From the NCBI GenBank assembly GCA_021818265.1, contig JAKAEP010000003.1:50335-114334 (forward strand): a stretch of 64,000 bases of DNA. The letters are read 5' to 3'. Source of the stretch: Actinomycetes bacterium (GTDB lineage Bacteria > Actinomycetota > Acidimicrobiia > Acidimicrobiales > RAAP-2). A program made the position numbers and the translations under genes. Below the pieces are notes generated by a model. The model did no database searches and was not told where the DNA came from. It saw only the letters and a list, made by a program, of their open reading frames with translations. Below, piece by piece: positions 27,032 to 63,292 of the stretch (position 1 is the stretch's first letter; every line of letters starts with the position of its first letter).

Positions 27032-29167
27032 CTACAGCGAGCGAGCGCGAGGGACGATCACGGCGTCCAGGGCGACCACGCCGCGGCCAGCCTCGCGCAC
27101 GAGCACCGGGTTGAGCTCGATCTCGTCCAGCTCGTCGCTCGCCTCGAGCGTGCGCGCGAGCACCGACACCATCGTGACGAGCGCCTCCACGTCGAGGGGC
27201 ACGGCTCCGCCGCTCAACGCGCGTGCGAGCTCGAGGCCCTCCAGGGCGCGGCGGACCTCGGCCCGCCCGGCCGCGGCGCCCACGACGGCGACGTCGCGGG
27301 CCGACTCGACGGCGGCCCCGCCCGAGCCCACGACCGCGACCACCCCCCAGGTGGGGTCCCGGCGGGCGCTCACGATCGCCTCGACGCCGCCCGAGAGCAC
27401 CTCTTCGACGAGGACGCCCTCCACGCGGGCCTCCGGCGCGGCGCGGCGCACCCGTGCGAGCAGCCCGTCGTAGGCCGACGCGAGGGCCGAGGGCTCCGCG
27501 ACGACCGCCACGCCCCCGACGGCGGCTTTGTGCACGACGTCGGGCGAGGAGACCTTGAGGACGACGGGGTAGCCCAGCGCCGCGGCCGCCTCGCGCGCGT
27601 CGCCCAGGTCGCCCACGCGTCGGCCCGCCGGGACCGCGATCCCCACCCCGGCGAGGAGCGCCTTGGCGGCGTGCTCGCTCGGGGGACCACCGTCGCCCAG
27701 GTGCAGCGCCACCCCCGGGCGGGCCGGCTCTCGCGCGTCGAGGGCGCGCGCCGCCTCGACGAGGTCGACCAGGTGGCCCAGGGCCCGCAGGGCCCGCTCC
27801 GGGGAGCGAAAGAGCGCCACGTCGGCGTCGAGGATGGCGAGCACGTTCTCCTCGGGCAGGGGGCAGTCCCCGCCCATGATCGCGTAGAGCACCGGCTTGG
27901 CCGCCCCGGCGATCGCCGGCACCAGCGCGCCGACCTGCTGGGCGCCCTGCAGGGGTGAGCCCGGCATCACGGCGAGCACGACCCCCGCCACCTCGGGCGC
28001 GTCGAGCAGGACGCTCGCTGCTCGGGCGTAGAGGCTGGGGTCGTTGAGGCCCGTGGCGGTGATGTCGACCGGGTTCTCGGCGACGGCGAACGCCGGCAGC
28101 TCGACCCCGAGGGCGCGCGTGGCGTCCTCGCCGAGGGTGGCCAGCGAGAGCCCCAGGGCGTCGCCCACGTCGATCGAGAAGGTCTTCATCGCGCCCGAGT
28201 CGGTCACGACCCCGATACCGCGCCCCCGCGGCGCCGGGCACTTGGTCACGACGTCGGCCAGGTCGATCAGCTCGTCGATCGACTCGAGGACGACGACGCC
28301 CTCGGCCGCGAGCGCCGCGCGGGTCACCGTGTAGTCGCCCGCCAGGGCGCCCGTGTGGGTGAGCGACGCCGCCCGCGCCCGCTCCCCGCGCCCGAGGTGC
28401 ACCACGAGAACCTCGCGGCCGCGCTCGCGGGCCCGACGCGCCGCGGCGAGGAACTCCCCGGGCCGGCGGATCTGCTCGACGAGCATCGCCACCGCCGCCG
28501 TGGCGTCGTCATCGGCGAGGGCGTCGAGGTAGTCCTCGATCCCGACGACGGCCTCGTTGCCCGTGGAGACGGCGTAGGTGACCGTGACGTCCTTGGCCAT
28601 CGCCGCGTAGGTCAGCGCGAGGGTCATCGCCCCGCTCTGGGCGACGATGGCGAGCCCCCGGGGCCGGACCCGGCGGTTCGGCGAGGCGTCGCCGAAGGTG
28701 AGCGGCACCCGGTCCACGAAGTTGACGAGCCCCAGGCAGTTCGGACCGGCCAGGGCCAGGCCGTGCGCTCGTGCGAACGCCGCGAGCGCGCGCTGGTCCT
28801 CGGCCCCCTCGGGCCCGGTCTCGGCGTAGCCCGAGGAGAAGACCACGGCGCCGCCCACTCCCCGTCGGCTGAGGGCCTCGAGCGCGCCCGGCACGGCCGC
28901 CCGCGGGATGGCGAGGATGGCGGCGTCGACGCCCCGGGGCAGGTCGTCGATCGAGTGCAGGCAGGCCCGTGCGCCGATGGCGTCGCGCGAGGGGCTGACC
29001 GGGTAGACCTCGCCGGCGAAGCCGAAGCGGTCGAGCAGGGCGAGCGGCGCGCCCCCGACCGAGGTCGTGACGTCCGAGGCGCCCACCACGGCCACCGAGC
29101 GCGGCCGCAGCAGCCGCCCGAGCGCGAGCGCGTCGACGCGCGCGGGGACGGCCGGCTCAGTCCCCAC
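27032..29167 (-). CDS. ADP-forming acyl-CoA synthetase (CoA-binding plus ATP-grasp), candidate feruloyl-CoA synthetase of FerA type
   Basis: LLRPRSVAVVGASDVTTSVGGAPL, GPNCLGLVNF, AQSGAMTLAL, AALGYPVVLKVSSPDVVHKAAVGGV; 711 aa; directly downstream of and overlapping hydratase/lyase gene. Confidence 0.85.
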   Translation of the reverse strand: MGTEPAVPARVDALALGRLLRPRSVAVVGASDVTTSVGGAPLALLDRFGFAGEVYPVSPSRDAIGARACLHSIDDLPRGVDAAILAIPRAAVPGALEALSRRGVGGAVVFSSGYAETGPEGAEDQRALAAFARAHGLALAGPNCLGLVNFVDRVPLTFGDASPNRRVRPRGLAIVAQSGAMTLALTYAAMAKDVTVTYAVSTGNEAVVGIEDYLDALADDDATAAVAMLVEQIRRPGEFLAAARRARERGREVLVVHLGRGERARAASLTHTGALAGDYTVTRAALAAEGVVVLESIDELIDLADVVTKCPAPRGRGIGVVTDSGAMKTFSIDVGDALGLSLATLGEDATRALGVELPAFAVAENPVDITATGLNDPSLYARAASVLLDAPEVAGVVLAVMPGSPLQGAQQVGALVPAIAGAAKPVLYAIMGGDCPLPEENVLAILDADVALFRSPERALRALGHLVDLVEAARALDAREPARPGVALHLGDGGPPSEHAAKALLAGVGIAVPAGRRVGDLGDAREAAAALGYPVVLKVSSPDVVHKAAVGGVAVVAEPSALASAYDGLLARVRRAAPEARVEGVLVEEVLSGGVEAIVSARRDPTWGVVAVVGSGGAAVESARDVAVVGAAAGRAEVRRALEGLELARALSGGAVPLDVEALVTMVSVLARTLEASDELDEIELNPVLVREAGRGVVALDAVIVPRARSL

Positions 29168-30017
29168 GGGCCTGGTCGGCCTCGGCGCCGAGGCCGGGCC
29201 GGAAGCTCTTCTTGTCGAGGAAGCCCTCGAGGCCCCGCTGCTTGGAGCGCTCGGGGTCGCCCAGGATCCCCTGGTCGAACTTGGCGTAGAGGAACTCCTC
29301 GGCGTCGTCCCAGGCCATGAGGCGGGCCTTGCGGAAGCCGCCCTTGGCCGCGCGCATCACCGAGGGGCTGACCGCCGCGAGCCGGTGGGCGACCTCGACC
29401 GTGCGCTCGCGCAGCCGCTCGCGGGGCACCGCCTCGTTCACCAGGCGCATCTGGGCGGCCCGCACGCCGTCGATCGGCTCGCCGGTCATGATGAGCCACA
29501 GGGCGTCGCGGGTCGAGACCGTCTCGGCCAGCGAGCGGGTGACGAGGCCCCCCGGGGGGATGCCCCAGTTGACCTCGGAGAGGCCGAAGACGGCGTCCTC
29601 GGCCGCCAGGGCCAGGTCGCAGCACACGAGGGGGGTGATCGCCCCGCCGAAGCACCAGCCGTTGACCATCGCGATGGTCGCCTTGGGGTAGTTGATGAGC
29701 CGGCGCCACTGCCACTCGGCGCTCTCGCGTCGCACCCGCGTCTGGACGTGGGCCGGGGCCTGGTCGACCTCGCGGAAGTACTCCTTCAGGTCCATCCCGG
29801 CCGACCACGACTCCCCCTCGCCGGTCAGGACCACCACGCGGACCCGGTCGTCGGCCTCGAGGCGCTCGAGCGACTCGGTCATCTCGAGGTTGAGCGTCGG
29901 GTTCATGGCGTTGCGCTTCTCGGGCCGGTTGAACGAGAGCCACCCGATGGGGCCCTCGACCTCGACGCGCACCGTCCCCTTCGTCGTCGTCCAACTCGTC
30001 GCCTCGGACTGCGTCAT
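29157..30017 (-). CDS. p-Hydroxycinnamoyl-CoA (feruloyl-CoA) hydratase/lyase
   Basis: Crotonase with hydratase/lyase-diagnostic stretches SWSAGMDLKEYFREVD, WQWRRLINYPKATIAMVNGWCFGGAITPLVCCDLALAAEDAVFGLSEVNWGIPPGG; ATG at 30017. Confidence 0.9.
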   Translation of the reverse strand: MTQSEATSWTTTKGTVRVEVEGPIGWLSFNRPEKRNAMNPTLNLEMTESLERLEADDRVRVVVLTGEGESWSAGMDLKEYFREVDQAPAHVQTRVRRESAEWQWRRLINYPKATIAMVNGWCFGGAITPLVCCDLALAAEDAVFGLSEVNWGIPPGGLVTRSLAETVSTRDALWLIMTGEPIDGVRAAQMRLVNEAVPRERLRERTVEVAHRLAAVSPSVMRAAKGGFRKARLMAWDDAEEFLYAKFDQGILGDPERSKQRGLEGFLDKKSFRPGLGAEADQARGD

Positions 30018-30082
30018 GCGACCCCCCCTCGACGGCCCCTCGACCGGCGGCGCCGGTGTGCCGCGTGTAGCAAGGTACCTGA

Positions 30083-30137
30083 TACCAACGACCGCGACAA
30101 GCACCGTCGTCCCCGGGGCGCGTCGCGCGCGTTGGTA
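30083..30137. promoter_or_regulatory. Candidate MarR operator region: inverted heptamers TACCAAC ... GTTGGTA in ferB/marR divergent intergenic region
   Basis: TACCAAC at 30083-30089 and GTTGGTA at 30131-30137; nearby GGTACCTGATACC at 30074-30086. Confidence 0.4.
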
Positions 30138-30147
30138 CGCTGCGGAC

Positions 30148-30618
30148 GTGTCCCGACCGACGACGCCCGCCGTGCCCGAGCATCCCCAGGCCCGCCTGAC
30201 GTACCTGGTCAAGCAGCTCGAGCGCGCGATCCGGGTCGCCATGGAGGACATCACCCGGGAGTTCGGGCTCACCCCCATCCAGTACACCGCGCTCAGCGTG
30301 CTCGTGCGCAACCCGGGCATGTCCTCGGCCCAGCTCGCCCGGCGCAGCTTCGTGAGCCCCCAGGCCTGCTACGAGATGATCCTCATCCTCGAGCGCAACG
30401 GCCTGGTGACCCGCACCCCCACCGCGGCCAACCGCCGCGTCCTCGGCATCGCGGTGACCCGGCGCGGGGTGGGCGTCCTCACCAAGTGCGACCGCAAGAT
30501 GGACGAGCTCGAGGGCCGCATCTTCGCCACCCTCGACGGCGCCGACCGCCGCCAGTTCCGCGACGCCCTGACGGGCTGTCTCGCCGCGATCTACCCCGAG
30601 ATCCGCCGGCCCCTCTAA
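30148..30618 (+). CDS. MarR family transcriptional regulator, divergent from hydratase/lyase gene
   Basis: FGLTPIQYTALSVLVRNPGMSSAQLARRSFVSPQACYEMILILERNGLVTRTPTAANRRVLGIAVTRRG. Confidence 0.88.
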   Translation: MSRPTTPAVPEHPQARLTYLVKQLERAIRVAMEDITREFGLTPIQYTALSVLVRNPGMSSAQLARRSFVSPQACYEMILILERNGLVTRTPTAANRRVLGIAVTRRGVGVLTKCDRKMDELEGRIFATLDGADRRQFRDALTGCLAAIYPEIRRPL

Positions 30619-30632
30619 GCCATCGGGCCCCG

Positions 30633-31640
30633 CTAGCGCTCGCGCACCCGGTAGCCCACGGGCAGCAGCTCGAAGCGGGTCTTGTCGCGCACCAGCCCCC
30701 AGACGCCGCCGGGCTGCCACAGCGCGACCGCGACGGCCAGGGCCCCGAAGATGATGAGGTACCACGCCCCCAGGCCCTGGAGGGACTGGTAGAGGACGAA
30801 GTAGACGATCGTGCCGACGATCGGCCCCTCGACGGTGCCGATGCCACCGATGATCGTGGCGAAGAGCATCTCGGCCAGCCAGTTGATGTTGAACGCGTTG
30901 CCCGGCTGGACGAAGGGCTGGCTGATGGCGAGCACGGCCCCGGCCGCGCCGCAGCCCACCGCGGCGATCACGAAGATCCACCGGCGCGTCGAGGTGACCC
31001 GCGCCCCCGAGGAGCGCGCGGCCGTCTCGCTGTCGCGCATCGAGGCGAGCACGAGTCCCAGGCGCGAGCGCAAGAGCAGGTACGTCCCGACGCTCACCAC
31101 CAGCGCCGTCAGCCAGGTCGCGAGGTACGAGTCGTGGTTGTACTGGGCCGGGCTGAGCCCCGTGAGCCCCGGCATCGGCCGGCCCGTCCCGCCCCCGAGG
31201 TAGGAGATCGAGAGGATGATCAGCATGGCGCTGTCGGCCACGACCCACGTCGCCACGGCGAAGTAGCCCCCGCGCAAGCGAAAGAGCAGGAACGTCACCG
31301 GCACCGCGATGGCCCCGGCGACCAGGGCCGCCAGCGGGATGGCCGCGAACGGGTTCATACCCTTGAGGGCCAGGTAGAGCAGGGCGTACGAGCCGAGCCC
31401 GATGAAGCCCTGCTGGCCGATCGAGACCATGCCGGCGTAGCCCGCGAGCAGGTTCCACATGGTGGCCATGATGAGCAGCAGGAAGAAGTTGTTGAGCACC
31501 GACACCCACGCGGCCGGCAGGATCCACGGCGCCAGGGAGAAGAAGGCCGCGACCACGACCGCCCCGGTGACGAGGATCGCCGGGTGGTAGTTGGCCCGCA
31601 CCACGGTGCGCCCGACGTCGGGCACCAGGGTCGCGCTCAC
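30633..31640 (-). CDS. livM: Liv-type ABC transporter permease (LivM-like)
   Basis: LLAGYAGMVSIGQQGFIGLGSYALLYLAL, LVLASMRDSETAARSSGARV; GTG start overlaps livH stop. Confidence 0.92.
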   Translation of the reverse strand: MSATLVPDVGRTVVRANYHPAILVTGAVVVAAFFSLAPWILPAAWVSVLNNFFLLLIMATMWNLLAGYAGMVSIGQQGFIGLGSYALLYLALKGMNPFAAIPLAALVAGAIAVPVTFLLFRLRGGYFAVATWVVADSAMLIILSISYLGGGTGRPMPGLTGLSPAQYNHDSYLATWLTALVVSVGTYLLLRSRLGLVLASMRDSETAARSSGARVTSTRRWIFVIAAVGCGAAGAVLAISQPFVQPGNAFNINWLAEMLFATIIGGIGTVEGPIVGTIVYFVLYQSLQGLGAWYLIIFGALAVAVALWQPGGVWGLVRDKTRFELLPVGYRVRER

Positions 31641-32512
31641 GTGAGCGCCTCCTTCTTGCCGAAGAGGCCCTGGGGCCGCAGCGCGAGGATGGCGAGGAAG
31701 AGGACGTGGCCGGCGAGGACCTGGTAGGCGGGGTTGTAGTGGGCCCCGACCTGCTGGGCCACCCCGAGCAGGATCCCACCGATGAGGGTCCCCCACAGCG
31801 AGCCGATGCCGCCGATCACCACCGCCTCGAAGGCGTAGAGCAGGACCTGGGAGCCGCCGGTCGTGGGGGTCAGCTCGGTGAGGATCCCGTAGGAGATCCC
31901 CGCCAGGGCCACCGTCGCCACGGCGATCGCCGCGGCGATGCCGAAGATGTGCCGGTAGTTGGCCCCGCAGATCTGCGCGGCCTCGCGGTCGTCGGAGACG
32001 GCGCGGATGAGCCGGCCCGTGCTGGTCTTTGACAGGTAGAGCTGCAGGATCCCGAGGACCGCCACCGCCACGATGAGGACCACCAGCTCGAACCACGAGA
32101 CGTAGATGGTCGAGTTCACCTGCCAGGAGTTCCCGATGAGCGAGCCGATGTTCACCGACTGGCCGTTCGCCGTGTAGATCTCCAGGAGCAGGTTCTCGAT
32201 CAGGACCGACAGGCCGAAGGTCACGAGCAAGGTCGTGAACGGGCTGCGGTCGAGGGCCGCCTGCAGGACGGTGCGCTGGAGCACGTAGCCGACGAGCGCG
32301 AAGATCGGCACGACGACGATGAAGCCCCAGACCTCGGCGATGTGCAGGTGGGGCACGAGGAAGACGGCCGTGTAGCCCGCGACGACGGCGATGTCGCCGT
32401 GGGCGAGGTTGATGATCCGCATCACGCCGAAGAGCAGGGACAGCCCGCAGGCGAAGAGCGCGTAGAAGCCCCCGAAGAGGACCCCCTGGACGATGACGTT
32501 GGTCCAGGTCAC
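31637..32512 (-). CDS. livH: Liv-type ABC transporter permease (LivH-like)
   Basis: YALFACGLSLLFGVMRIINLAHGDIAVVAGY, FEAVVIGGIGSLWGTLIGGILLGV. Confidence 0.92.
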   Translation of the reverse strand: MTWTNVIVQGVLFGGFYALFACGLSLLFGVMRIINLAHGDIAVVAGYTAVFLVPHLHIAEVWGFIVVVPIFALVGYVLQRTVLQAALDRSPFTTLLVTFGLSVLIENLLLEIYTANGQSVNIGSLIGNSWQVNSTIYVSWFELVVLIVAVAVLGILQLYLSKTSTGRLIRAVSDDREAAQICGANYRHIFGIAAAIAVATVALAGISYGILTELTPTTGGSQVLLYAFEAVVIGGIGSLWGTLIGGILLGVAQQVGAHYNPAYQVLAGHVLFLAILALRPQGLFGKKEALT

Positions 32513-33243
32513 GTCGTGCCCCCCGGCCGGCTGTGGTGGAGGTCGGCCCCGAAGTAGGCCTCCTCGATCTGATGCGCGCTCAGCTCGTCGGGCCGCCCCT
32601 CGAGCGAGGTCCGCCCCTCGAGCAGGCAGTGCACGCGGTGGGCCACCTTGAGGCCCTGGCTGACGTCCTGCTCCACCAGCAAGACGGTGACGCCCTGGGC
32701 CACGATGGCGGGGATCACCTCGTAGATCCGCTCGATGACGATGGGGGCGAGCCCGAGGGAGACCTCGTCGAGCATGAGGACCCGGGGGTTGGCGACGAGG
32801 GCCCGGCCGATCGCCACGGCCTGCTGCTCGCCACCGGAGAACTGCGCGACGCTCGCGCGCCGGCGCTCTCTCATCCAGGGGAAGATCTCGTAGACGGCCG
32901 GGATGTCGAAGGAGCCCTCGAGCGCCTTGTGGGCCCCGACGAGCAGGTTCTCCTCGAGGGTGAGCGAGCGGAAGAGCCGCCGGCCCTCGGGCACGAGCGA
33001 GATCCCCCGGCGGACCCGCTCGTGGGCCCCGAGCCGAGAGATGTCCTCCCCGGCGAAGCGCACGACGCCCCTGCTCGGGCGGTGCAGGCCGGCGATCGTG
33101 CGCAGCAGGGTCGACTTGCCCGCCCCGTTGGCGCCCACGACGGCGAGCACCTCGCCCTCGGCCACGTGGAACGACACGTCGTCGACCGCGCAGAGCTGGC
33201 CGTGGTGCACCACGAGTCCCTCGACCTCGAGCAGGGCGCTCAC
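32509..33243 (-). CDS. livF: Liv-type ABC transporter ATP-binding protein (LivF-like)
   Basis: GANGAGKSTLLRTIAG, FSGGEQQAVAIGRALVANPRVLMLDEVSLGLAPIVIERIYEVI. Confidence 0.93.
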   Translation of the reverse strand: MSALLEVEGLVVHHGQLCAVDDVSFHVAEGEVLAVVGANGAGKSTLLRTIAGLHRPSRGVVRFAGEDISRLGAHERVRRGISLVPEGRRLFRSLTLEENLLVGAHKALEGSFDIPAVYEIFPWMRERRRASVAQFSGGEQQAVAIGRALVANPRVLMLDEVSLGLAPIVIERIYEVIPAIVAQGVTVLLVEQDVSQGLKVAHRVHCLLEGRTSLEGRPDELSAHQIEEAYFGADLHHSRPGGTT

Positions 33244-33977
33244 GACACCGCCTCGTTGATGATGGCGCCGCCCATGTAGACCCGACGGACGGCTTCGGAG
33301 TTGAGGACCTCCCGGGGCGCGCCGTCGGCAACCAGCTCCCCCCCGGCGAGGCAGACCAGTCGGTCGACCGTCGAGAGCAGGGCTCGCACGACGTGCTCGA
33401 TCCAGACGATCGTCACCCCGTCGGCGCGCAGGGAGCGGATCACCTCGGTCAGCTCGACGACCTCGAGGTCGGTCAATCCGCCGGCGATCTCGTCGAGCAA
33501 GAGCAGCTCCGGCCCGGTCGCGAGCGCCCGGGCCAGTTCGAGTCGCTTGCGGTGCAAGAGGCCGAGCGCCCCCGCCGGCCGGTTGGCCAGGTCGATGAGG
33601 CCCGTGCGCACCAGCGCGTCGAGCGCCCGCTCGGAGCCCTCGCGCCCGTGGACCCGCGCGCCCTGGTGCACGGCGACGAGGGCGTTCTCGAAGACCGACA
33701 GGTGCTCGAAGGGTTGGGGGATCTGGTAGGTCCGCCCGATCCCCGCCCGGCACCGGGTGGCCACCGCGGCGCGGGTGATGGAACGCCCCTTGAAGAGGAT
33801 CTCCCCCGCGTCGACGCGAACGTCGCCCGCGATCATCGAGAAGAGCGTCGTCTTGCCCGCCCCGTTGGGTCCCACGATGCCGACCGCGTCGCCCGCCTCC
33901 AGCTGCAGGGAGACGCCGTCGGCCACGACCACCTGGCCGAAGCGCTTCGAGACGCCCTGCAACTGGAGGAGGGACAC
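33240..33977 (-). CDS. livG: Liv-type ABC transporter ATP-binding protein (LivG-like)
   Basis: GPNGAGKTTLFSMIAGDV, GIGRTYQIPQPFEHLSVFENALVA, LLLDEIAGGL. Confidence 0.93.
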   Translation of the reverse strand: MSLLQLQGVSKRFGQVVVADGVSLQLEAGDAVGIVGPNGAGKTTLFSMIAGDVRVDAGEILFKGRSITRAAVATRCRAGIGRTYQIPQPFEHLSVFENALVAVHQGARVHGREGSERALDALVRTGLIDLANRPAGALGLLHRKRLELARALATGPELLLLDEIAGGLTDLEVVELTEVIRSLRADGVTIVWIEHVVRALLSTVDRLVCLAGGELVADGAPREVLNSEAVRRVYMGGAIINEAVS

Positions 33978-34019
33978 GGTCGACTACTTCTGGGGCGCGT
34001 TACGCGTGCGGGCGTCCGG

Positions 34020-35459
34020 CTAGGGGTTCGTCGGCTCCAGGGACGCCTGGAGGGGGATGTGGGGGTTGAGAGAGTTGTCGACCACGTAGGGCGACCACGG
34101 CCACTTCTTGCCCCCGACGAGCTTCGTCGAGCCCGGCTTCCACTGGATCCCGACCGGCTTGATGATGCCGATGCCCTTGGCGGGCGCGGTCTTGGCCGAG
34201 AAGTTGAGCGGGCCGCACATGCCCACGTAGTTGACCTCCCGGAGGGCGTGCGCGACGGCCTTGCGGTCGTGGGGGTTCTTCACCTTCTTCAGCGCCTCGA
34301 TGACGATCTCGAAGAGCGAGTAGGTCGAGCCCATCGACTGCACCCACTGGGTCTTGGTGACCTGCTGGTAGCGGGCGGCGAACTTCTCCGCCGTCATGCC
34401 CGTGAGCGACGACTTGTAGGGCGAGTTCGGCGTCCACCAGGCGTCGGTCGCGATGTTGTTCGACAGCGACCCGAGCGCGTACACGTCGGTCGGGAAGAGC
34501 ATCACCTTGGCGACGGTCGCCAGCTTCGGCTTGAACCCCTGCTGGTTGGCCTGCTTCCAGAAGGTGTTGAAGTCGGGCGGCAGCGGCGCGTTGACGTAGA
34601 AGTCGCACGGCTTGCCGTTGGCGCCCGCCTTGAACGTCTGGATCATCGAGGTGTAGTCGGTGGTGCCGTCGGTGTAGGCGCCGCCGAAGACCTCGACCCA
34701 CTGTCCGTGGCCCTCCGCCCCGCTGATCGCGTTGAGCGTCGGGGGCCACGCGGCCGCGAAGGCGTTGCCGTCGGCGTCGTTCGGGAACATCGCCGCGTAG
34801 ACGTTGGACGCGTTGAGCCGCTTCTGGATCTTCAGCCACATAGGCATGAACGTGCCGACGAACTCCGGGATGCCGAAGAAGAACATGGTGCAGTACGTCG
34901 GCGAGGTGCCCACCGCGTTGCCGGTCGCGCCGATCGAGTTCGAGGGGTTGACCCCGGTCCACCAGGCCTCCCACGGGCAGACGGTCGAGACGCACGGGAT
35001 GCCCGCCTGCTCGCACACCGCCGACACCGGGATGGTCGTCTCGGGCGCCGAGGAGGTCACGACGATGTCCACGCCGGTCGACTGGATCAGCTGGGTCGTC
35101 ACCTGGCTCGCCACCGAGGGGTTGGACTGGCTGTCCTTGACAGTGATCTCGAACTTGTAGGTCTTGCCACCGATCTTCATCCCCTTGTGGAAGGCGCCCG
35201 AGGCCTTCACCAGGCTGATGACGTAGCTGTCCGGTCCGGCGAAGTCCGCGAGCGCGCCCGTCTTGGGGGTGACGTAGCCGATCTTGATGACGTTCGACTT
35301 GCTCGCCGCCCCCGCCGCCGCCGCCTTGGCGAGGCTCGCGACCCCGCCGGCGAGGGCCGTCGCCCCGATCGCCTTAAGCCCGAGGCGTCGGCCGAACTCC
35401 ACGCTGCCCCAGCCCGGGACGACGATGCCCTCGTCCCCGTGCACTTGCTCACCGCTCAT
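34020..35459 (-). CDS. Liv-type ABC transporter substrate-binding protein (possible Tat-like leader)
   Basis: GRRLGLKAIGATALAGGVASLA leader, NVIKIGYVTPKTGALADFAGPDSYVIS; adjacent to livGFHM. Confidence 0.88.
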   Translation of the reverse strand: MSGEQVHGDEGIVVPGWGSVEFGRRLGLKAIGATALAGGVASLAKAAAAGAASKSNVIKIGYVTPKTGALADFAGPDSYVISLVKASGAFHKGMKIGGKTYKFEITVKDSQSNPSVASQVTTQLIQSTGVDIVVTSSAPETTIPVSAVCEQAGIPCVSTVCPWEAWWTGVNPSNSIGATGNAVGTSPTYCTMFFFGIPEFVGTFMPMWLKIQKRLNASNVYAAMFPNDADGNAFAAAWPPTLNAISGAEGHGQWVEVFGGAYTDGTTDYTSMIQTFKAGANGKPCDFYVNAPLPPDFNTFWKQANQQGFKPKLATVAKVMLFPTDVYALGSLSNNIATDAWWTPNSPYKSSLTGMTAEKFAARYQQVTKTQWVQSMGSTYSLFEIVIEALKKVKNPHDRKAVAHALREVNYVGMCGPLNFSAKTAPAKGIGIIKPVGIQWKPGSTKLVGGKKWPWSPYVVDNSLNPHIPLQASLEPTNP

Positions 35460-35548
35460 TGTGTTGCCCCCCTAGCACGAATGCCATTTCTTAGCACGCG
35501 GCGCTCTTCGCCACGTGGTCACTCTCGCCCCAACCACCGCTCGACCGC

Positions 35549-36583
35549 TCAGCTCGACGCCGCCAGCTCCTCTCGTGCCATCTCGTCCAGGATGCGACGT
35601 GCCGCCAGGCCGCCGCGGTCGATCTTGATCGAGACCTCGGTCGTCTCGTTGCCCTCGTCGAGGCGCGACTGCAAGATGGTGAGCGCGTCGACGTCCTCTT
35701 GGACGACGCCGGCCTGCATCTTGGCGAGGAAGTCGTCCACCGTGCGGTCCTCCACGGCGAAGTCCCGCGACAGCGCCCAGAAGTCCCAGACCGTCCGCTC
35801 CGTCGCGGGGGTGAGCCCGTAGAAGATCTTCATGTGGAAGGCGTGGTCGTCGCTCCCGTCGGGCAGCGGCGGGCGGCCCGTCGGCGCGAGGCGCGCGTTG
35901 AGTTGGTAGAAGCCCGGTGGGTGGTACTCGATGTCCTGCCAGCGGTCCACGAGGCCCTCGAGGCCCGTCGTGTTCGCGTAGAACGGCGGGCAGACCACCG
36001 CGGTCATGTGGCGGTAGACCTCGACGCGCCGGGCCGCCTCGTCGACCTCCACCTCGATCGGGGTCTCGGCGACCTCCGGGGTGCCGATCGAGCCCGCGTG
36101 GAGGAACGTCTCGTGCGAGAGGTCGAGCAGGTTGTCCACGAGCAGGGTGAAGTTGGCCTCGATCGCGGCGACCCCGGCGATCACGGCCCGCTCGTGCGAG
36201 GCCTCGAGCCACGGCGCGTCGGGCAGGAGCGTACGGTCGGGCTCGCCGGCGCCCATCCAGATGAAGACCCACGCGCCGCGCTCGACCAGCGGGTACGTGC
36301 GCACGTGCAGGCGGCTCGGGATCCGGTCCTGGCCGGGCACCGCCACGCACGAGCCCGCGGCGTCGAAGGTGAAGCCGTGGTAGCCGCACACCAGGTGCTC
36401 GCCGACGACCCGGCCCAGCGAGAGCGGGTAGCCCCGGTGCGGGCAGGTATCGCGCAGGGCGACCACCTCGCCCGAGTGGTTCCGGTACATCGCGACGTGC
36501 TCGCCCAGGATCGTCCGCCCGATCGGCCGCTCGGACAGCTCGGCCGCGAGCGCCGCGACGTACCAGCGCTGGCGAATGAACAC
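35549..36583 (-). CDS. vanA: Rieske non-heme iron oxygenase, vanillate O-demethylase oxygenase subunit-like
   Basis: MFIRQRWYVAALAAEL, RDTCPHRGYPLSLG..VCGYHGFTFD Rieske motif, DNLLDLSHETFLHAGSIG iron site typical of VanA. Confidence 0.85.
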   Translation of the reverse strand: MFIRQRWYVAALAAELSERPIGRTILGEHVAMYRNHSGEVVALRDTCPHRGYPLSLGRVVGEHLVCGYHGFTFDAAGSCVAVPGQDRIPSRLHVRTYPLVERGAWVFIWMGAGEPDRTLLPDAPWLEASHERAVIAGVAAIEANFTLLVDNLLDLSHETFLHAGSIGTPEVAETPIEVEVDEAARRVEVYRHMTAVVCPPFYANTTGLEGLVDRWQDIEYHPPGFYQLNARLAPTGRPPLPDGSDDHAFHMKIFYGLTPATERTVWDFWALSRDFAVEDRTVDDFLAKMQAGVVQEDVDALTILQSRLDEGNETTEVSIKIDRGGLAARRILDEMAREELAASS

Positions 36584-36700
36584 TCCCTGTCTCCCCCTAT
36601 GAACCCAGGAGCGAGATGGACGTCGTCGGCCATCGGCTGGTGACGACGCTAGTGACTGTGTGCTATTGAGTCAAGTACGTTGAGATTGAAAGGGGCTCTG

Positions 36701-38158
36701 ATGGGACTCATGGACGGCGCGCCCTGGGGGGGCAAGATCTTCACCGGCGAGTGGGTCGCCGGATCGGGCGGCGAGCACCGCGTCACCGAGCCCGCGACCG
36801 GCGACGCGCTCGGCGCGGTCGGCTTGGCCACGCCGGCCGACGTCACCGCGGCCGCCGCCCGGGCCGCCGAGGCCCAGCGCGCCTGGGCCGAGCTGCCCTT
36901 CAACCAGCGCGCGGCCGTGCTGCGCCGCGCGGGCGACGCGTTCGTCGCGAACCACGCCGAGATCGCCGAGTGGATCGTGCGCGAGTCCGGGGCCATCGGG
37001 CCCAAGGGCGACCTCGAGGTCCACGTCGCGGCCGAGGAGTGCTACGAGGCCGCGGCGATCGCGTCGCACCCGATCGGCGAGATCCTCCGTTCGGAGTTCC
37101 CGCGCCTGAGCTTCAGCCGCCGGGTGCCCGTGGGCGTGGTGGGCGTGATCGCGCCGTTCAACTTCCCGCTCATCTTGTCGATCCGCTCGGTGGCCCCGGC
37201 CCTCGCGCTCGGCAACGCCGTCATCTTGAAGCCCGACCCCCGCACCGCCGTGTGCGGCGGCGTGTCGCTGGCGCGCGTCTTCGAAGAGGCCGGCCTCCCG
37301 GCCGGACTGTTCAGTGTGCTGCCGGGCGGCGCCGACGTGGGCGAGGCCCTCGTCGTCGAGCCCTCGGTGCGCGTCATCGCCTTCACGGGTTCGACGGCCG
37401 CCGGCCGCACCGTCGGTGCGGTCGGGGCCCAGCACCTCAAGCGCGTCCACCTCGAGCTCGGCGGCAACTCCGCCCAGATCGTCATGGGCGACGTCGACGT
37501 GGAGAAGGCCGCCTCGGTCGGGGCCTTCGGGTCCTTCTTCCACCAGGGCCAGATCTGCATGACGACCGGGCGCCACATCGTCGACGCGGCGATCGCCACC
37601 GACTACGCGGCGGCCCTGGCCGAGCACGCGAAGCACCTGCCGGTGGGTGACCCCAAGACCGGCCAGGTCGCCCTCGGCCCGCTGATCGACGAGCGCCAGC
37701 GCGACCGGGTCCACGCCATGGTCTCGGACACGGTCGCCGCCGGCGCCACGGTCGCGGCCGGCGGATCCTACGAGGGGCTCTTCTACCAGCCCACCGTCTT
37801 GACCGACGTGCCGCTCAGCGCGCCGGCCTACGCCGAGGAGGTCTTCGGCCCGGTGGCGCCGGTCGTGCCGTACCACTCGCTCGACGAGGCGGTCGCCCTC
37901 GCCTCGGCCTCGCCCTACGGGCTCAGCTTCTCGATCCTCGCCGGGGACGGGCTCAAGGCGCTCGAGGTGGCCAGTCGCATCCCCTCGGGGGCCATCCACA
38001 TCAACGACATGACCGTGGCCGACGAGGCGACGATCCCCTTCGGCGGGTTCGGCGTCTCGGGCAACGGCTCGCGCATGGGCGGCCTCGCCAACCTCGAGGC
38101 CTACACCGAGCGCCAGTGGGTCACCGCCCAGAGCGAGCTGCCGGCCTACCCCTTCTAG
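36701..38158 (+). CDS. vdh: Vanillin/benzaldehyde dehydrogenase-like aldehyde dehydrogenase
   Basis: FSRRVPVGVVGVIAPFNFPLILSIRSVAPALALGNAVILKPDPRTAVCGG, FTGSTAAGRTVG, ELGGNSAQIVMGDVD, GQICMTTGRH; SD-like gaaagggg upstream of ATG. Confidence 0.85.
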   Translation: MGLMDGAPWGGKIFTGEWVAGSGGEHRVTEPATGDALGAVGLATPADVTAAAARAAEAQRAWAELPFNQRAAVLRRAGDAFVANHAEIAEWIVRESGAIGPKGDLEVHVAAEECYEAAAIASHPIGEILRSEFPRLSFSRRVPVGVVGVIAPFNFPLILSIRSVAPALALGNAVILKPDPRTAVCGGVSLARVFEEAGLPAGLFSVLPGGADVGEALVVEPSVRVIAFTGSTAAGRTVGAVGAQHLKRVHLELGGNSAQIVMGDVDVEKAASVGAFGSFFHQGQICMTTGRHIVDAAIATDYAAALAEHAKHLPVGDPKTGQVALGPLIDERQRDRVHAMVSDTVAAGATVAAGGSYEGLFYQPTVLTDVPLSAPAYAEEVFGPVAPVVPYHSLDEAVALASASPYGLSFSILAGDGLKALEVASRIPSGAIHINDMTVADEATIPFGGFGVSGNGSRMGGLANLEAYTERQWVTAQSELPAYPF

Positions 38159-38171
38159 GGGGCCCGCGGGC

Positions 38172-39365
38172 TCAGTCGCCCAGGTCCACGCTGGAGAGGT
38201 CGACGTAGTTGCGCGCGAGCGTCTCGGTGGCCGTGCGGACGCTCACGGCCTGACGCAGCCGGGCGAGCTGCACGCCGTTCTCGAAGTCGTCGCTCGGGTG
38301 GGGGTGGAGCATCTGGGTCATGTAGGTCGAGAACTCCTCGGCCCGCCAGATCCGACGGAGACAGGCGTCGGAGTAGGCGTCGAGCGGGCGTTCGTCGCCC
38401 TCGAGCACCCCGGCCACCAGGGCCGGGGCGAGTCGGCGCACGTCGGCGAGGGCGAGGTTCATCCCCTTGGCACCGGTCGGGGGCACGATGTGGGCGGCGT
38501 CCCCGGCGAGCACCAGGCGCCCGTAGCGCAGCGGGGCGCGCACGATCGAGCGCATCGCCGTGATCGAGCGCTCCACGACCGGCCCCTCCTCGATCGTGGG
38601 CATCTCGGCCGTGGCCAGGCGGGCGTTGAGCTCGGCCCAGATCCGGTCGTCCGACCAGTTCTCGAGCGACTCGCTCGGGTCGACCCCGAGGTAGAGGCGG
38701 CTGATGGTCGGTGAGCGCATCGAGTAGAGCGCGAAGCCCCGCTCGTGGCGGCAGTAGATCAGCTCCTCGGTGGCGGGCGGGGCCTCGGCGAGGATCCCGA
38801 GCCACGCGTAGGGGTAGGTGCGTGCGGCCACGCTGAAGTGGCCCTCGGGCACGCCGCGCGCGGCCACGCCGTGGGCGCCGTCGGCGCCCACCACCCAGTC
38901 GGCCTCGACCCGCACGGGGCCCTCGGGGCCCGTCGCGACCACGACCGGCCGGTCCTGGTCGAGCCCCTCGATGGCCTCGACCTCGGTCTCGAAGAGCAGG
39001 GGCCGCCCCGACGCCAGGCGCAGCCGGTTGAGGTCCTTCACGAGCTCGGTCTGGCCGTAGACGGTGATCGGGTGGCCGTCGTAGAGCTCCGAGAGCGCCA
39101 CCCGATGGGACCGGCCCTCGAAGCGCAGCTCGATGCCGTGGTGCACGAGGCCCTTCTCGCGCATCCGCTCGCCGACCCCGATCTCGGCGAGGAAGTTGGC
39201 GATCCCGTACTCGATGACCCCCGCGCGCACGCGCTGCTCGACGTAGGCCCGGCTGCGCCGCTCCAGGACGACCGTCTCGACCCCGGCGGCGTCGAGGAGG
39301 TGGCCGAGCACGAGCCCGACCGGTCCCGCCCCGACGATGGCCACCGGAACTCGAATGGTCTCCAC
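38172..39365 (-). CDS. pobA: 4-Hydroxybenzoate 3-monooxygenase (FAD-dependent)
   Basis: VAIVGAGPVGLVLGHLL, RVRAGVIEYGIANFLAEIGVGERMREKGLVHHGIELRFEG, TVYGQTELVKDL, LAGDAAHIVPPTGAKGMNLALADV. Confidence 0.9.
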   Translation of the reverse strand: METIRVPVAIVGAGPVGLVLGHLLDAAGVETVVLERRSRAYVEQRVRAGVIEYGIANFLAEIGVGERMREKGLVHHGIELRFEGRSHRVALSELYDGHPITVYGQTELVKDLNRLRLASGRPLLFETEVEAIEGLDQDRPVVVATGPEGPVRVEADWVVGADGAHGVAARGVPEGHFSVAARTYPYAWLGILAEAPPATEELIYCRHERGFALYSMRSPTISRLYLGVDPSESLENWSDDRIWAELNARLATAEMPTIEEGPVVERSITAMRSIVRAPLRYGRLVLAGDAAHIVPPTGAKGMNLALADVRRLAPALVAGVLEGDERPLDAYSDACLRRIWRAEEFSTYMTQMLHPHPSDDFENGVQLARLRQAVSVRTATETLARNYVDLSSVDLGD

Positions 39366-39496
39366 GCGCCCTCCCGTCCGCGACAGAACCTATCGCGCGC
39401 GGCCGGGGGTGTTTGCCAGGTGCCTTGCGACGTGCCACAGTGGGTGGACCACGGCGTCAGCGTTGAGGACGTGGGTCGCGCAATCGAAGGGGACCT

Positions 39497-40183
39497 ATGG
39501 CCGTCGTCGTCACGAACACGCCACGGACCCCGCTCGCGCTCGTCGAGGAGTTCGCCGTCCTCGGGGTCGCCACGGTCCACGAGGCGCAGGGCCGAACGGG
39601 GCTGCTCCACCACCGCCTGCGCCCGATCTACCGGCCGATCCACGTGGCCGGCACCGCCCTCACCTGCGAGGTCGCCCCCGGCGACAACTGGTCGATCCAC
39701 GTCGCGGCCGAGCAGGCCCGCCCCGGCGACGTCCTCGTCGTCACGCCCACGAGCCCTTGCGACGACGGCTACTTCGGCGAGCTGCTCGCGACCAGCCTCC
39801 GGGCCCAGGGGGTGCGCGGGCTCGTCATCGACGCCGGCGTGCGCGACGTCGCCGAGCTCACCGCCCTGGGCTTCCCCGTCTGGTCGAGAACCGTGAGCGC
39901 CCAGGGGACGGTCAAGGAGACACCGGGCAACGTCCAGACACCGATCGTCGTCGCCGGCCAGCGCGTCGAGCCCGGCGACGTGATCGTCGCCGACGACGAC
40001 GGCGTCGTCGTCGTCGCGCGCGACCGGGCCGAGGCGGTGCTCGACGCGGCGCGCGCCCGCGAGGCGAACGAGGCCGCCAAGCGCGCCCGCCTCGCCGCCG
40101 GCGAGCTGGGGCTCGACCTCTACGCCATGCGCGATCGCCTGGCCGAGCGGGGCCTCACCTACCGTGAGTACGACGGGGCATGA
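39497..40183 (+). CDS. ligK: 4-Carboxy-4-hydroxy-2-oxoadipate aldolase (RraA/LigK-like)
   Basis: [71 protein letters not shown]; start of lig-like operon. Confidence 0.85.
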
Positions 40184-41277
40184 ACGACCAGCGGGCGATC
40201 GCCTGCTCGGTGCTGCGCGGGGGCACCAGCAAGGGCCTCTACTTCCGCGCCGAGGACCTGCCCGAGGCGCGCGCGGTGCGCGACCGGGTCCTGCTCGCCG
40301 CCCTGGGCTCACCCGACCCCCGCGAGATCGACGGGATGGGCGGCGCCCACCCCCTCACCTCGAAGGTCGCCGTCGTGCGCCGCTCGAACCGACCCGACGC
40401 GGACGTCGACTACCTCTTCTTGCAGGTGTGGCCCGACCGGCCCGAGGTCTCCGACACCCAGAACTGCGGGAACCTGCTCGCCGGGGTGGGCCCCTTCGCC
40501 CTCGAGGAGGGCCTCGTCGCCCCCGCGGGGGAGGTCACCGACGTGCGGATCTGGATGGAGAACACCCAGAGCCGGGCCGTCGCGCGCGTCCAGACCCCGG
40601 GGGGCGTCGTGCGCTACGCCGGCGACGCGCACATCGACGGCGTGCCCGGCACCCACGCGCCGATCCCCATCGAGTTCCTCGACGTGGCCGGCTCCTCGTG
40701 CGGGGCGCTGCTCCCGACCGGCCGGGTGCGCGACGTCGTCGAGGGCATCGAGGTGACCTGCGTCGACAACGGCATGCCGGTCGTCTGCGTGCGCGCCGCC
40801 GACCTGGGCCTGGAGGGCACGGAGTCCCCGGCCGACATCGAGGCGCGCCCGGAGGTGCGCGAGCGCGTCGAGGCGCTGCGCCTCGCCTGCGGCCCGCTCA
40901 TGAACCTCGGCGACGTCGCGAGCTCGACGGTGCCCAAGGTGAGCCTGCTCTCGCGCGCCCAGCGCGGCGGGGCCCTCTCCACCCGCACCTTCATCCCCCA
41001 CCGGGTCCACGAGGCGATCGGGGTGTTCGGCGCCGTCTCGGTGGCGACGGCCTGCGTGCTCACCGGCTCGGTCGCGGCGGAGGTGTCGGGGCTCCCCACG
41101 CGCCCGGGCGAGACGACCCTCGACATCGAGCACCCCACCGGCTACTTCTCGGTGACCCTGGAGGTGGTGGCGGGGCCCGACGGCCCGACCGTCGCGCGCG
41201 CCGCCCTGCTGCGCACGGCGAGGCTCTTGATGCGCGGCGAGGTGTACGTGCCCGACGCGACCTGGGAGGAGCGGTGA
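40180..41277 (+). CDS. 4-Oxalomesaconate tautomerase (PrpF family, LigU/GalD-like)
   Basis: [55 protein letters not shown]. Confidence 0.85.
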
Positions 41278-42293
41278 TCGTCGACTGCCACGGCCACTAC
41301 ACGACGGCCCCCGCGGCCCACAGCGCCTGGCGCGCCGCGCAGGTCGCGGCCGCCGCCGAGGGCCGCGTCGCCCCGGCGTACCCGACGATCGGCGACGACG
41401 AGATCCGCGAGACGATCGAGCAGAACCAGCTGCGCCTCCAGCGCGAGCGCGGGTCCGACCTGACGCTCTTCTCGCCACGGGCCTCGGCGATGGAGCACCA
41501 CGTGGGCGACGCGGCGGTCAGCCTCGCCTGGTCGAGGGCGTGCAACGACCTGATCGCCCGGGTGGTCGAGCTCTTCCCGGAGAACTTCGCCGGGGTGGCC
41601 ATGCTCCCCCAGTCCCCCGGCGCGGACCTCGCGGCCTCGGTGGCGGAGTTGCGCCGCTGTGTCGAGGAGCTGGGCTTCGTCGGCTGCAACCTCAACCCCG
41701 ACGTGAGCGGCGGCCGCTGGGACGGACCGCCGCTCACCGACCGCTACTGGTACCCGATCTACGAGGTCATGGTCGAGCTCGACGTGCCGGCCATGGTCCA
41801 CGTCTCGTCCAGCTGCAACCCGAACTTCCACGCGACCGGCGCGCACTACATCAACGCCGACACCACCGCCTTCATGCAGCTGATCCAGGGCGACCTCTTC
41901 GCCGACTTCCCCACCCTGCGCCTGGTGATCCCCCACGGCGGGGGCGCCGCGCCCTACCACTGGGGCCGCTACCGCGGGCTCTGCGACATGCTGGGTCGCC
42001 CGCCCCTCGAGGAGCACGTCATGGGCAACGTCTACTTCGACACCTGCGTCTACCACCAGCCCGGTATCGACCTGCTCCTCGAGGTCGTCGACACCCCGAA
42101 CGTCCTGTTCGGGTCGGAGATGCTCGGCGCGGTGCGCGGGGTCGACCCGCGCACCGGCCACCACTACGACGACACCAAGCGCTACCTCGACGCCGCGACG
42201 CTCACCGCCCCCGCGCGCCAGGCGATCGACGAGCGCAACGCCCGGCGCGTCTACCCCCGCCTCGACGCGCGCCTCGAGGCCTTGGGGCGATGA
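41274..42293 (+). CDS. ligJ: 4-Oxalomesaconate hydratase (amidohydrolase family, LigJ-like)
   Basis: [101 protein letters not shown]. Confidence 0.9.
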   Translation: MIVDCHGHYTTAPAAHSAWRAAQVAAAAEGRVAPAYPTIGDDEIRETIEQNQLRLQRERGSDLTLFSPRASAMEHHVGDAAVSLAWSRACNDLIARVVELFPENFAGVAMLPQSPGADLAASVAELRRCVEELGFVGCNLNPDVSGGRWDGPPLTDRYWYPIYEVMVELDVPAMVHVSSSCNPNFHATGAHYINADTTAFMQLIQGDLFADFPTLRLVIPHGGGAAPYHWGRYRGLCDMLGRPPLEEHVMGNVYFDTCVYHQPGIDLLLEVVDTPNVLFGSEMLGAVRGVDPRTGHHYDDTKRYLDAATLTAPARQAIDERNARRVYPRLDARLEALGR

Positions 42294-43178
42294 CCCCGGC
42301 CTTCACCATGGACCCGGGCTGGCTGGCCTACTGTCCCCACCCCTCCACGCCGGCCCTCGTCCTGCCCGAGGGGGCGGTCGACGCGCACTGCCACGTCTTC
42401 GGCCCGGGCGACGTCTTCCCCTACGCCCCCGAGCGCAAGTACACCCCCTGTGACGCCGGCAAGGACGCGCTCTTCGCCCTGCGCGACCACCTGGGCTTCT
42501 CGCGCAACGTCATCGTCCAGGCCACCTGCCACGGCGCCGACAACTCCGCCATGGTCGACGCCCTTCGCGCCAGCGGCGGGCGGGCCCGCGGGGTGGCGAC
42601 GGTGCGACCCGAGGTCACCGACGAGACCCTCGCCGAGATGCACGCCGCCGGCGTGCGCGGGGTCCGCTTCAACTTCGTGCGCCGGCTGGTCGACCCCAAG
42701 CCCGACGCGTACTACCGCTCGATCGTCGAGCGGATCGCCCCGCTGGGCTGGCACGTCGTCGTCTACTTCGAGGCCGCCGACCTCGCCGAGCGCTGGGACC
42801 TCTTCACCACCCTCGGGGTGCCGGTCGTGGTCGACCACCTGGGACGGCCCGACGTGACCCGGAGCGTCGACGGGCCCGAGTTCGGCCTCTTCCTGCGCTT
42901 CATGGAAGAGAACGAGCAGGTCTGGGCCAAGCCCACCTGCCCCGAGCGGCTCTCGGTGGCCGGGCCGCCCTACGACGACGTGGTGCCCTTCATGCGCCGG
43001 GTGATAGAGGGCTTCCCCGACCGGGTGCTCTGGGGCACCGACTGGCCCCACCCGAACCTGACCCGCGAGATGCCCGACGACGGGTGGCTCGTCGACTTCG
43101 TCGCGCGCGTGGCCGTGACCGAGGACCTCCAACGTAGACTCCTCGTCGACAACCCGACGCGGCTGTACTGGGGGGACG

Positions 43179-43186
<8 letters not shown>
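42290..43186 (+). CDS. ligI: 2-Pyrone-4,6-dicarboxylate lactonase (LigI-like)
   Basis: GAVDAHCHVFGPGDVFPYAPERKYTPCDAGKDALFALRDHLGFSRNVIVQATCHGADN, VLWGTDWPHPN. Confidence 0.92.
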
Positions 43187-44407
<1,221 letters not shown>

Positions 44408-44418
44408 CCCCGGGAACC

Positions 44419-45357
44419 GTGCGGATCGCCCTCGCCGGAGCCGGCGCCTTCGGCCTCAAGCACCTCGACGCGCTGGCGCGCGTCGAGGGCGCCGAGGTCG
44501 TCGCGATCGTCAGCCGCCGGCTGGAGCAGGCGCGCGAGGTCGCCGACCGCTACGGCGTGCCCGCGGCCTACACCGAGCTCGACGACGTGCTGAACCGCGG
44601 CGACGTCGACGCCGTCATCTTGTGCACGCCGACCCAGCTGCACGCGGCCCAGGCGATCGCGGTGATGGACGCCGGCAAGCACGTCCAGGTCGAGATCCCC
44701 CTCGCCGACAGCTACGAGGACGCCCAGGCCGTGGCCGCGCTCCAGCGTGCGACGGGCCTGGTGTGCATGGTGGGCCACACGCGGCGCTTCAACCCCAGCC
44801 ACCAGTGGGTCCACCGGCGCATCGCCGAGGGCGAGCTCTCCCTCTACCAGATGGACGTGCAGACCTACTTCTTGCGCCGGACCAACCTCAACGCTCTGGG
44901 CCAGCCACGCAGCTGGACCGACAACCTCCTCTGGCACCACGCCGCCCACACCGTCGACCTCTTCGCCTACCAGTGCGCGTCGCCGATCGTGGCGGGCCAC
45001 GCGATGGCCGGACCGGTCCACCCCGACCTGGGCATCCCCATGGACATGTCGATCCAGCTCAAGACCGCCCAGGGCCAGCTCTGCACGCTGTCGCTGAGCT
45101 TCAACAACGACGGGCCGCTCGGCACCTTCTTCCGCTACATCGGCGACACCGGCACCTACGTCGCGCGCTACGACGACCTCGTGACGGGCCGCGACGAGCC
45201 GGTCGACGTGAGCCGCGTGGCGGTCTCGACCGACGGTATAGAACTCCAGGACCGCGAGTTCCTCGCGGCTATCGACGAGGGTCGCGAGCCCAACGCCTCG
45301 GTCCACCAGGTCCTCGACTGCTACCGCGTCCTCGCTGAGCTCGAGGCCCAGCTCTAG
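44419..45357 (+). CDS. ligC: 4-Carboxy-2-hydroxymuconate-6-semialdehyde dehydrogenase (LigC-like)
   Basis: [23 protein letters not shown] Rossmann, [46 protein letters not shown]; adjacent to ligAB. Confidence 0.92.
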
Positions 45358-48042: not shown

Positions 48043-48701
48043 GCCTCGACCTGCGGGTCCTGCCTGACCCCGAGGCCCTCGCCGAGGTGGCGGCCGACTG
48101 GCTGCGCGGGGCCATCGACGCCCGCCGGGCCGAACGCACCCCGGTCTCGCTCGCGCTCTCGGGCGGCACCACCCCCTGGGCGATGGTCGCCCACCTGCGC
48201 GACGTCGTCCCCTGGGGCGAGGTCGAGGTCTTCCAGGTGGACGAGCGCGTCGTGCCGGTGACGAGCGAGCTGCGCAACTGGCGCCACCTCGAGGCCGGCC
48301 TCGGGGGCTCGGGCGCGCGGCTCGTCCCGATGCCCGTCGACGACGCCGACCTCGAGGCCGGCGCCCACCGCTACGCCGAGGCGCTGCCCGAGCGGCTCGA
48401 CGTCGTGCACCTCGGGCTCGGCGCCGACGGCCACTGCGCCTCGCTGGTCCCCGACGACCCGGTCCTCGCGGTCGCCGACCGCGCCGTCGCCCTGACGGCC
48501 CACCCCTACCAGGGGCACCGGCGCATGACGCTGACCTACCCGACCTTGAACGCCGCGCGCCGGGTCCTCTGGCTCGTGAGCGGCAAGGACAAGCGCGAGG
48601 CGCTGGCGCGCCTCCTCGAGGGCGACCGCTCGATCCCCGCCGGGCGCGTCGCCGCCGAGTCGCAGGTGGTCTTCTGCGACGCGGCCGCCCGCGGGGATTA
48701 A
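48039..48701 (+). CDS. pgl: 6-Phosphogluconolactonase
   Basis: LALSGGTTPWAMVAHL, VEVFQVDERVVP, LGLGADGHCASLVPDD; between gnd and zwf. Confidence 0.92.
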   Translation: MSLDLRVLPDPEALAEVAADWLRGAIDARRAERTPVSLALSGGTTPWAMVAHLRDVVPWGEVEVFQVDERVVPVTSELRNWRHLEAGLGGSGARLVPMPVDDADLEAGAHRYAEALPERLDVVHLGLGADGHCASLVPDDPVLAVADRAVALTAHPYQGHRRMTLTYPTLNAARRVLWLVSGKDKREALARLLEGDRSIPAGRVAAESQVVFCDAAARGD

Positions 48702-48710
48702 GGAGAGCCC

Positions 48711-60239: not shown

Positions 60240-63292
<3,053 letters not shown>

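Follow-up and report, generated by a model that had tools for sequence, protein, structure and literature searches.

A conserved Acidimicrobiaceae gene block predicted to channel plant-derived phenolic acids into protocatechuate 4,5-cleavage

Described pathways and the proposed route

Protocatechuate 4,5-dioxygenases are considered almost exclusively proteobacterial, with one hit in 53 actinobacterial genomes, and among actinobacteria the 4,5-cleavage route has already been shown for Arthrobacter keyseri and Pseudarthrobacter (PMC8431788). Here we describe a gene block at positions 27032-45357 of a 64,000-nucleotide stretch of DNA, called the window below, from an Actinomycetes bacterium of the Acidimicrobiales (assembly GCA_021818265.1, contig JAKAEP010000003.1, positions 50,335 to 114,334). 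The window is the end of a contig (C48) in a metagenome-assembled genome (MAG) of 1.95 Mb that is 91% complete. This apparently chromosomal cluster is predicted to funnel phenolic acids derived from lignin or plant cell walls to protocatechuate and then into 4,5-cleavage, a reading to which we give a probability of roughly 85%. The genes, coordinates and strands listed in the original prediction hold. All are present, on the strands and essentially at the coordinates given there, in long open frames whose coding signal is strong (checked over 22-50 kb), and Pfam, NCBIfam and PDB searches confirm their families. Sequence establishes the identities of the Lig enzymes, of HCHL and, less securely, of PobA, as well as the gene order, its conservation and the ancestry of the lig operon; the substrates assigned to the CoA ligase, aldehyde dehydrogenase, VanA and importer, the regulation and the running of the pathway are predictions. 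Each proposed conversion follows chemistry already established for its enzyme family.

The core of the block is ligKUJIABC (39497-45357, plus strand), wherein neighbouring genes overlap or sit a few bases apart. All seven products match a characterized enzyme or a curated model, and from these matches we identify them as the protocatechuate 4,5-cleavage set. The ring would be opened by protocatechuate 4,5-dioxygenase, composed of the alpha subunit LigA (43179..43568; TIGR02792 211 bits, cut-off 108.6) and the catalytic beta subunit LigB (43568..44407; NF009903 496 bits, cut-off 317). The 4-carboxy-2-hydroxymuconate-6-semialdehyde (CHMS) dehydrogenase LigC (44404..45357; OxRdtase_C 290 bits; PDB 9azo, PmdC, 518 bits) would then yield 2-pyrone-4,6-dicarboxylate, which the hydrolase LigI (42290..43186; PDB 4d8l 345 bits, full length) is predicted to hydrolyse. 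Isomerization by the 4-oxalomesaconate tautomerase LigU (40180..41277; NF033377 510 bits, cut-off 440) and hydration by the 4-oxalomesaconate hydratase LigJ (41277..42293; PDB 6dxq 562 bits, full length) would follow, and the 4-carboxy-4-hydroxy-2-oxoadipate aldolase LigK (39497..40183; TIGR02798 330 bits, cut-off 304.5; NF006731 354 bits, cut-off 179) would release pyruvate and oxaloacetate as end products.

The LigB of the window gives a full-length alignment with the solved enzyme (PDB 1b4u, 435 bits) and keeps the iron-binding and catalytic residues His12, His61, His195 and Glu242. LigU, LigJ and LigK also act in gallate routes, and thus one might suppose that the cluster chiefly serves gallate or syringate-type compounds. 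However, LigB fits protocatechuate 4,5-dioxygenase far better than gallate dioxygenase (435 versus 242 bits), LigA is separate, and LigC and LigI, which are specific to the protocatechuate branch, are present together with PobA. We therefore reject a gallate pathway on the LigB scores and regard this alternative as very improbable, even though LigAB-type enzymes may take gallate, as Pseudarthrobacter PcaA does (PMC8431788).

There are two predicted entries to protocatechuate. The pobA gene (38172..39365, minus strand) encodes a probable 4-hydroxybenzoate 3-monooxygenase that passes the NF006091 subfamily cut-off (511 versus 351 bits) and matches PDB 7on9 (381 bits), and it would hydroxylate 4-hydroxybenzoate to protocatechuate. 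The second entry is a VanA-type Rieske oxygenase (35549..36583, minus strand), a putative vanillate O-demethylase oxygenase subunit, which would form protocatechuate by O-demethylation of vanillate. A second, 3,4-cleavage route was also considered and rejected, because a search of this genome with TIGR02422, the model for the beta subunit of protocatechuate 3,4-dioxygenase, gave no match. Of the 296 class genomes, 13 have a match above the cut-off of this model. The predicted use of 4,5-cleavage without a 3,4-route is thus upheld, and none of LigAB, LigI and the hydratase/lyase discussed next falls outside its functional clade when judged by similarity to solved enzymes.

Ferulate is predicted to enter through a unit that we assign by sequence to the FerC-FerB-FerA type. 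The FerA domain type and the FerC regulator have been described (PMC5863372, PMC6388921), and in Sphingobium SYK-6 and Polymorphobacter megasporae, as here, a MarR gene is divergent from the gene for p-hydroxycinnamoyl-CoA hydratase/lyase (HCHL), followed by a nucleoside diphosphate (NDP)-forming CoA ligase gene, with overlapping ends seen in Polymorphobacter. The hchl/ferB-like gene of the window (29157..30017, minus strand, with an ATG at 30017) encodes 286 amino acids that match NF006588 (400 bits, cut-off 276) and PDB 6l3o (338 bits), keeping the catalytic residues Glu143 and Tyr239, with a conservative change of Ser123 to Thr. Directly behind it, with an 11-base overlap, is an fcs/ferA-like gene (27032..29167, minus strand) for a putative NDP(ADP)-forming hydroxycinnamoyl-CoA (feruloyl-CoA) synthetase of 711 amino acids. 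This protein has the NDP-forming architecture (CoA_binding_2, Succ_CoA_lig and ATP-grasp_5) and PF13380, as in FerA; its proposed substrate is drawn from gene context, because NCBIfam and PDB return generic acyl-CoA ligases only. The ligase would join CoA to ferulate or p-coumarate, and HCHL would split the resulting thioester into acetyl-CoA and vanillin or 4-hydroxybenzaldehyde.

The divergent marR gene (30148..30618, plus strand; MarR_2 43 bits and MarR 38 bits, both above cut-off) occupies a FerC/CouR-like position. By analogy with FerC or CouR, its product probably represses the hchl-fcs unit, with relief by hydroxycinnamoyl-CoA. The hchl/marR gap contains a 24-base inverted repeat that is imperfect (79% complementary), and a search for an operator motif common to the marR/hchl, vanA/vdh and pobA/ligK regions found none. 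The unit differs from its sphingomonad counterparts in sequence, with HCHL 49-59% and the ligase about 42% identical. In trees with moderate support, both proteins of the window group with Acidimicrobiaceae, and HCHL also with Rhodococcus. The Rhodococcus opacus cluster likewise keeps genes for MarR, HCHL (62% identical) and an aldehyde dehydrogenase together, but its ligase is of the AMP-binding type and no lig genes are annotated in the 12.8 kb that were read around it. The hchl-fcs pair is also found in Polymorphobacter, Neorhizobium and Sphingomonas.

A vdh-like gene (36680..38158, plus strand; Aldedh 469 bits), whose frame opens at 36680 and whose probable start is the ATG at 36701, encodes a putative vanillin/4-hydroxybenzaldehyde dehydrogenase that would convert these aldehydes to vanillate or 4-hydroxybenzoate. 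Its best PDB match is the aldehyde dehydrogenase 8zcx, followed by the 4-hydroxybenzaldehyde dehydrogenase 9jw2 (328 bits) and the benzaldehyde dehydrogenase 3r64. The intergenic region that separates it from the divergent vanA gene (36584..36679) is nearly invariant among three close relatives, while the hchl/marR intergenic region has diverged. This pattern points to a constrained candidate promoter/operator shared by vanA and vdh.

Between marR and vanA lie five minus-strand genes for an ATP-binding cassette (ABC) importer of the branched-chain amino acid type (30633-35459). These encode livM-like (30633..31640; BPD_transp_2 114 bits) and livH-like (31640..32518; BPD_transp_2 89 bits) permeases, livF-like (32509..33243; ABC_tran 107 bits) and livG-like (33240..33977; ABC_tran 97 bits, BCA_ABC_TP_C) ATPases, and a substrate-binding protein of 479 amino acids (34020..35459; Peripla_BP_6). 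The substrate-binding protein and the rest of the importer remain beside vanA in genomes without hchl-fcs, and therefore vanillate- or hydroxybenzoate-type acids are the more likely cargo, rather than ferulate.

Conservation and ancestry of the block

All seven Lig enzymes are shared with the lig/pmd systems of Sphingobium SYK-6 and Comamonas, as reflected in the high full-length scores to solved LigAB, LigI, LigJ and PmdC. Here, however, they are encoded by one compact unidirectional KUJIABC operon, whereas ligIUK are opposite to ligJABC in the Sphingomonas and Brevundimonas loci. The actinobacterial pcm/pca genes of A. keyseri 12B (pRE1) and Pseudarthrobacter phenanthrenivorans Sphe3 (pASPHE302) also specify 4,5-cleavage, with LigJ 68% identical. 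These systems differ in being plasmid-borne, with LigA-LigB fused, the order J-K-I-AB-C, a LysR regulator, and Lig proteins that group with those of proteobacteria.

There are only few actinobacterial genomes with a true protocatechuate-type LigB, taken as a match with E < 1e-100. Of 296 genomes in the class sample, 7 have it (this genome is one of them), as do 4 of 397 in the phylum sample, in agreement with the published survey (PMC8431788) and with the rarity that had been predicted. Such scattered presence in the class sample, together with the description of the route as almost exclusively proteobacterial (PMC8431788), is what one would expect if the block were an island acquired laterally from lignin-degrading Pseudomonadota.

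The ancestry of the operon was examined with a concatenated LigKUJIABC tree of 72 loci plus the window. The loci were picked for their similarity in LigJ, and this unrooted tree, obtained by a quick search, was used in place of a single-gene LigJ tree that was too poorly resolved. A branch with a Shimodaira-Hasegawa-like approximate likelihood ratio (SH-aLRT) support of 100 separates the actinobacterial operons, along with three MAGs titled Acidobacteria, from the Pseudomonadota. On the side of the latter are also the copies of A. keyseri, Pseudarthrobacter and Streptomyces plasmids and one further actinobacterial genome (G157), and such actinobacterial copies on the proteobacterial side would also suit a lateral origin. 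The operon of the window, however, sits within the actinobacterial clade among many Acidimicrobiaceae, gene order is the same across this family, a pgi neighbour is common to five loci, and the G+C content of the block is in line with its surroundings. Since the window falls within the actinobacterial clade, a recent proteobacterial import of the lig operon is not supported and was rejected; the tree speaks for descent within the phylum. We consider the lateral island improbable, and the word 'island' in the original prediction is not borne out in the sense of an imported block.

Nor is the block singular. The nearest LigJ genes (93-94% identity) belong to the MAGs Actinobacteria bacterium 21-73-9, JA4.bin50 and WH2.bin133, and the next matches are many Acidimicrobiaceae MAGs whose sample names include palsa, bog and fen, which are habitat names for Stordalen Mire (PMC11153144). 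Among the best 80 LigJ loci, the series livM-livH-livF-livG-substrate-binding protein-vanA-vdh-pobA is complete upstream of ligK, in the same order and on the same strands, in 14 MAG loci, all of them Acidimicrobiaceae or misnamed MAGs; in several further loci the block is interrupted by a contig end. The gene for phosphoglucose isomerase, pgi (45401..47026, plus strand; PGI 667 bits), which adjoins the lig operon outside the pathway, is next to it in five relatives. The Acidimicrobiia-like placement of the window itself is backed by a same-genus genome (G250), one contig of which is identical to PKWW01000001 of Acidimicrobiaceae palsa_658. From this synteny we read the block as an inherited family trait kept among close relatives that come from peat and from acidic sites.

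Three of the MAGs (L049, L055 and L059) are titled Acidobacteria and carry Acidimicrobiaceae-like sequences and gene order; they are probably misnamed or mixed bins. A funnel in one locus is also not peculiar to the phylum, since most of it is found within some 15 kb in Sphingomonas guangdongensis (L085), where lig genes, pobA and hchl lie with genes for an aldehyde dehydrogenase and an NDP-forming ligase.

The ferulate module is held less steadily. An HCHL of this type is encoded in 8 of the 30 genomes behind the loci, and G250 and many others lack one. In the class and phylum samples, where few of the many crotonase candidates were scored per genome, this genome is the only one in which HCHL is detected at E < 1e-50 or 1e-60. 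The marR-hchl-fcs unit is kept whole, at 85-97% identity, in two of the closest relatives, JA4.bin50 (L132) and WH2.bin133 (L133). In the former it is intact beside the block on a contig that begins inside pobA, with the lig side on another contig of the same MAG (L041), and in the latter it is on a short contig. Another locus (L136) has hchl-fcs at 54-62% identity near livM. Thus, the ferulate module is an optional, patchily held extension of a steadier vanillate/4-hydroxybenzoate/lig core. In 21-73-9 (L134) a single contig carries the entire block, with an hchl that is some 46 residues too short and a split fcs (16621-19451), which suggests that the ferulate module is decaying or that the assembly is faulty here.

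The VanA-type oxygenase and its electron supply

VanAB demethylases are two-component enzymes (PMC9867520). The oxygenase of the window resembles them in having Rieske and VanA_C domains above cut-off and in keeping the metal-ligand motifs, but it differs in that VanB is missing from both the locus and the genome. The original prediction of a complete funnel therefore stands for the genes that it listed and overstates the vanillate step. Homologues with 50% identity to this VanA on Streptomyces and Pseudonocardia plasmids each have a phthalate dioxygenase reductase (PDR)/VanB reductase gene adjoining or one gene off, whereas no VanB-type reductase gene adjoins vanA here.

Several observations weigh against the operation of the route as proposed. 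The genome is a MAG at 91% completeness. The CoA ligase and the aldehyde dehydrogenase match generic curated models and no specific one, and PobA falls under the TIGR02360 equivalog cut-off (434 versus 538.7). Elsewhere in the genome there are only one partial Fer2 match and one weak NAD_binding_1 match, and a VanB query finds nothing. The same query detects no VanB-type reductase in 25 of 27 related genomes; its hits are one at 48% in a genome (G302) wherein vanA is more divergent (54%) and placed differently, plus one very weak match. A VanB encoded elsewhere in the genome was rejected on these domain and query searches. Vanillate demethylation is thus the weakest step of the pathway, because VanB is lacking here and in nearly all relatives.

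Without VanB in the genome, VanA either draws on a shared ferredoxin chain or has a different substrate. Perhaps the substrate of the oxygenase is some other aromatic acid, methoxylated or ring-substituted, such that the cluster would serve 4-hydroxybenzoate or p-coumarate along with a different methoxy-acid. The lack of a VanB partner fits this possibility, as does the finding that the closest solved enzyme is the dicamba O-demethylase DdmC (173 bits) and that identity to plasmid homologues is 50% or lower. However, vanA is divergently paired with the aryl-aldehyde dehydrogenase gene in many genomes, the metal ligands are kept, and a 50% identical homologue in Streptomyces NBC_00342 has VanB and lies beside pobA and 3,4-cleavage genes. 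We consider a different substrate to be rather doubtful.

The favoured reading, in which vanillate is the substrate, requires that electrons reach VanA from a source other than VanB, perhaps a ferredoxin. There is a single FAD-type ferredoxin reductase with a Reductase_C domain in the genome (G000:C66, gene end near 202290), which is a candidate partner and might serve such a ferredoxin. On this basis we tentatively propose, at less than even confidence, that Acidimicrobiaceae hold an inherited 4,5-cleavage operon of actinobacterial lineage in fixed order with a vanillate/4-hydroxybenzoate module, wherein a one-gene VanA on a shared ferredoxin chain replaces VanB.

Genomic surroundings and significance

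Genes for central carbon metabolism flank the block (45401-53515 and 23544-24593), and they encode the phosphoglucose isomerase noted above, a 6-phosphogluconolactonase-type protein, glucose-6-phosphate dehydrogenase, phosphoenolpyruvate synthase and a class I fructose-bisphosphate aldolase. The nearby phosphoenolpyruvate synthase gene (51020-53515) and pgi fit a gluconeogenic use of pyruvate, although this is circumstantial. The glycine cleavage genes gcvPA, gcvT and gcvH (12251-14901 and 22533-22913) might offer a one-carbon outlet. There is also a second aromatic ring-cleavage set at 6062-9331, consisting of genes for an HpaG-like fumarylacetoacetate hydrolase-family (FAH) protein, an HpaE-like semialdehyde dehydrogenase and a LigB-family, HpaD-like dioxygenase of the homoprotocatechuate type that scores under curated cut-offs. 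Near this set are a short-chain dehydrogenase/reductase gene and a further branched-chain-type ABC importer with a binding protein (204-4174, and just upstream on C48 at 8644-10203 of L028). A third LigB-family gene lies elsewhere in the genome (G000:C66:11452-12099, 95 bits). The predicted ribosomal RNA operon near the block is confirmed as a minus-strand 16S-23S-5S operon at 60046-64000; it lies at the end of the contig, which breaks off inside 16S. No tRNA genes were found across the 64 kb.

The pathway itself is known, but in the papers searched the block conserved in Acidimicrobiaceae and its lack of VanB appear to be undescribed, and literature searches that paired protocatechuate with Acidimicrobiia, Acidimicrobiales or Acidimicrobiaceae found nothing relevant. 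The newest lead is the orphan VanA that these genomes conserve. Which electron donor it uses is a well-defined question for biochemistry. The tree and the synteny indicate that the whole operon has an actinobacterial line of its own, present in many Acidimicrobiaceae of thawing permafrost peat. At Stordalen Mire, Actinobacteriota have been described as rich in polyphenol metabolism, in a report whose main text names neither protocatechuate nor Acidimicrobiia (PMC11153144), and the locus supplies concrete marker genes for metatranscriptomes from this site. If the proposed route is correct, uncultured actinobacteria of peat and acidic sites would be an overlooked aerobic sink for plant phenolics.

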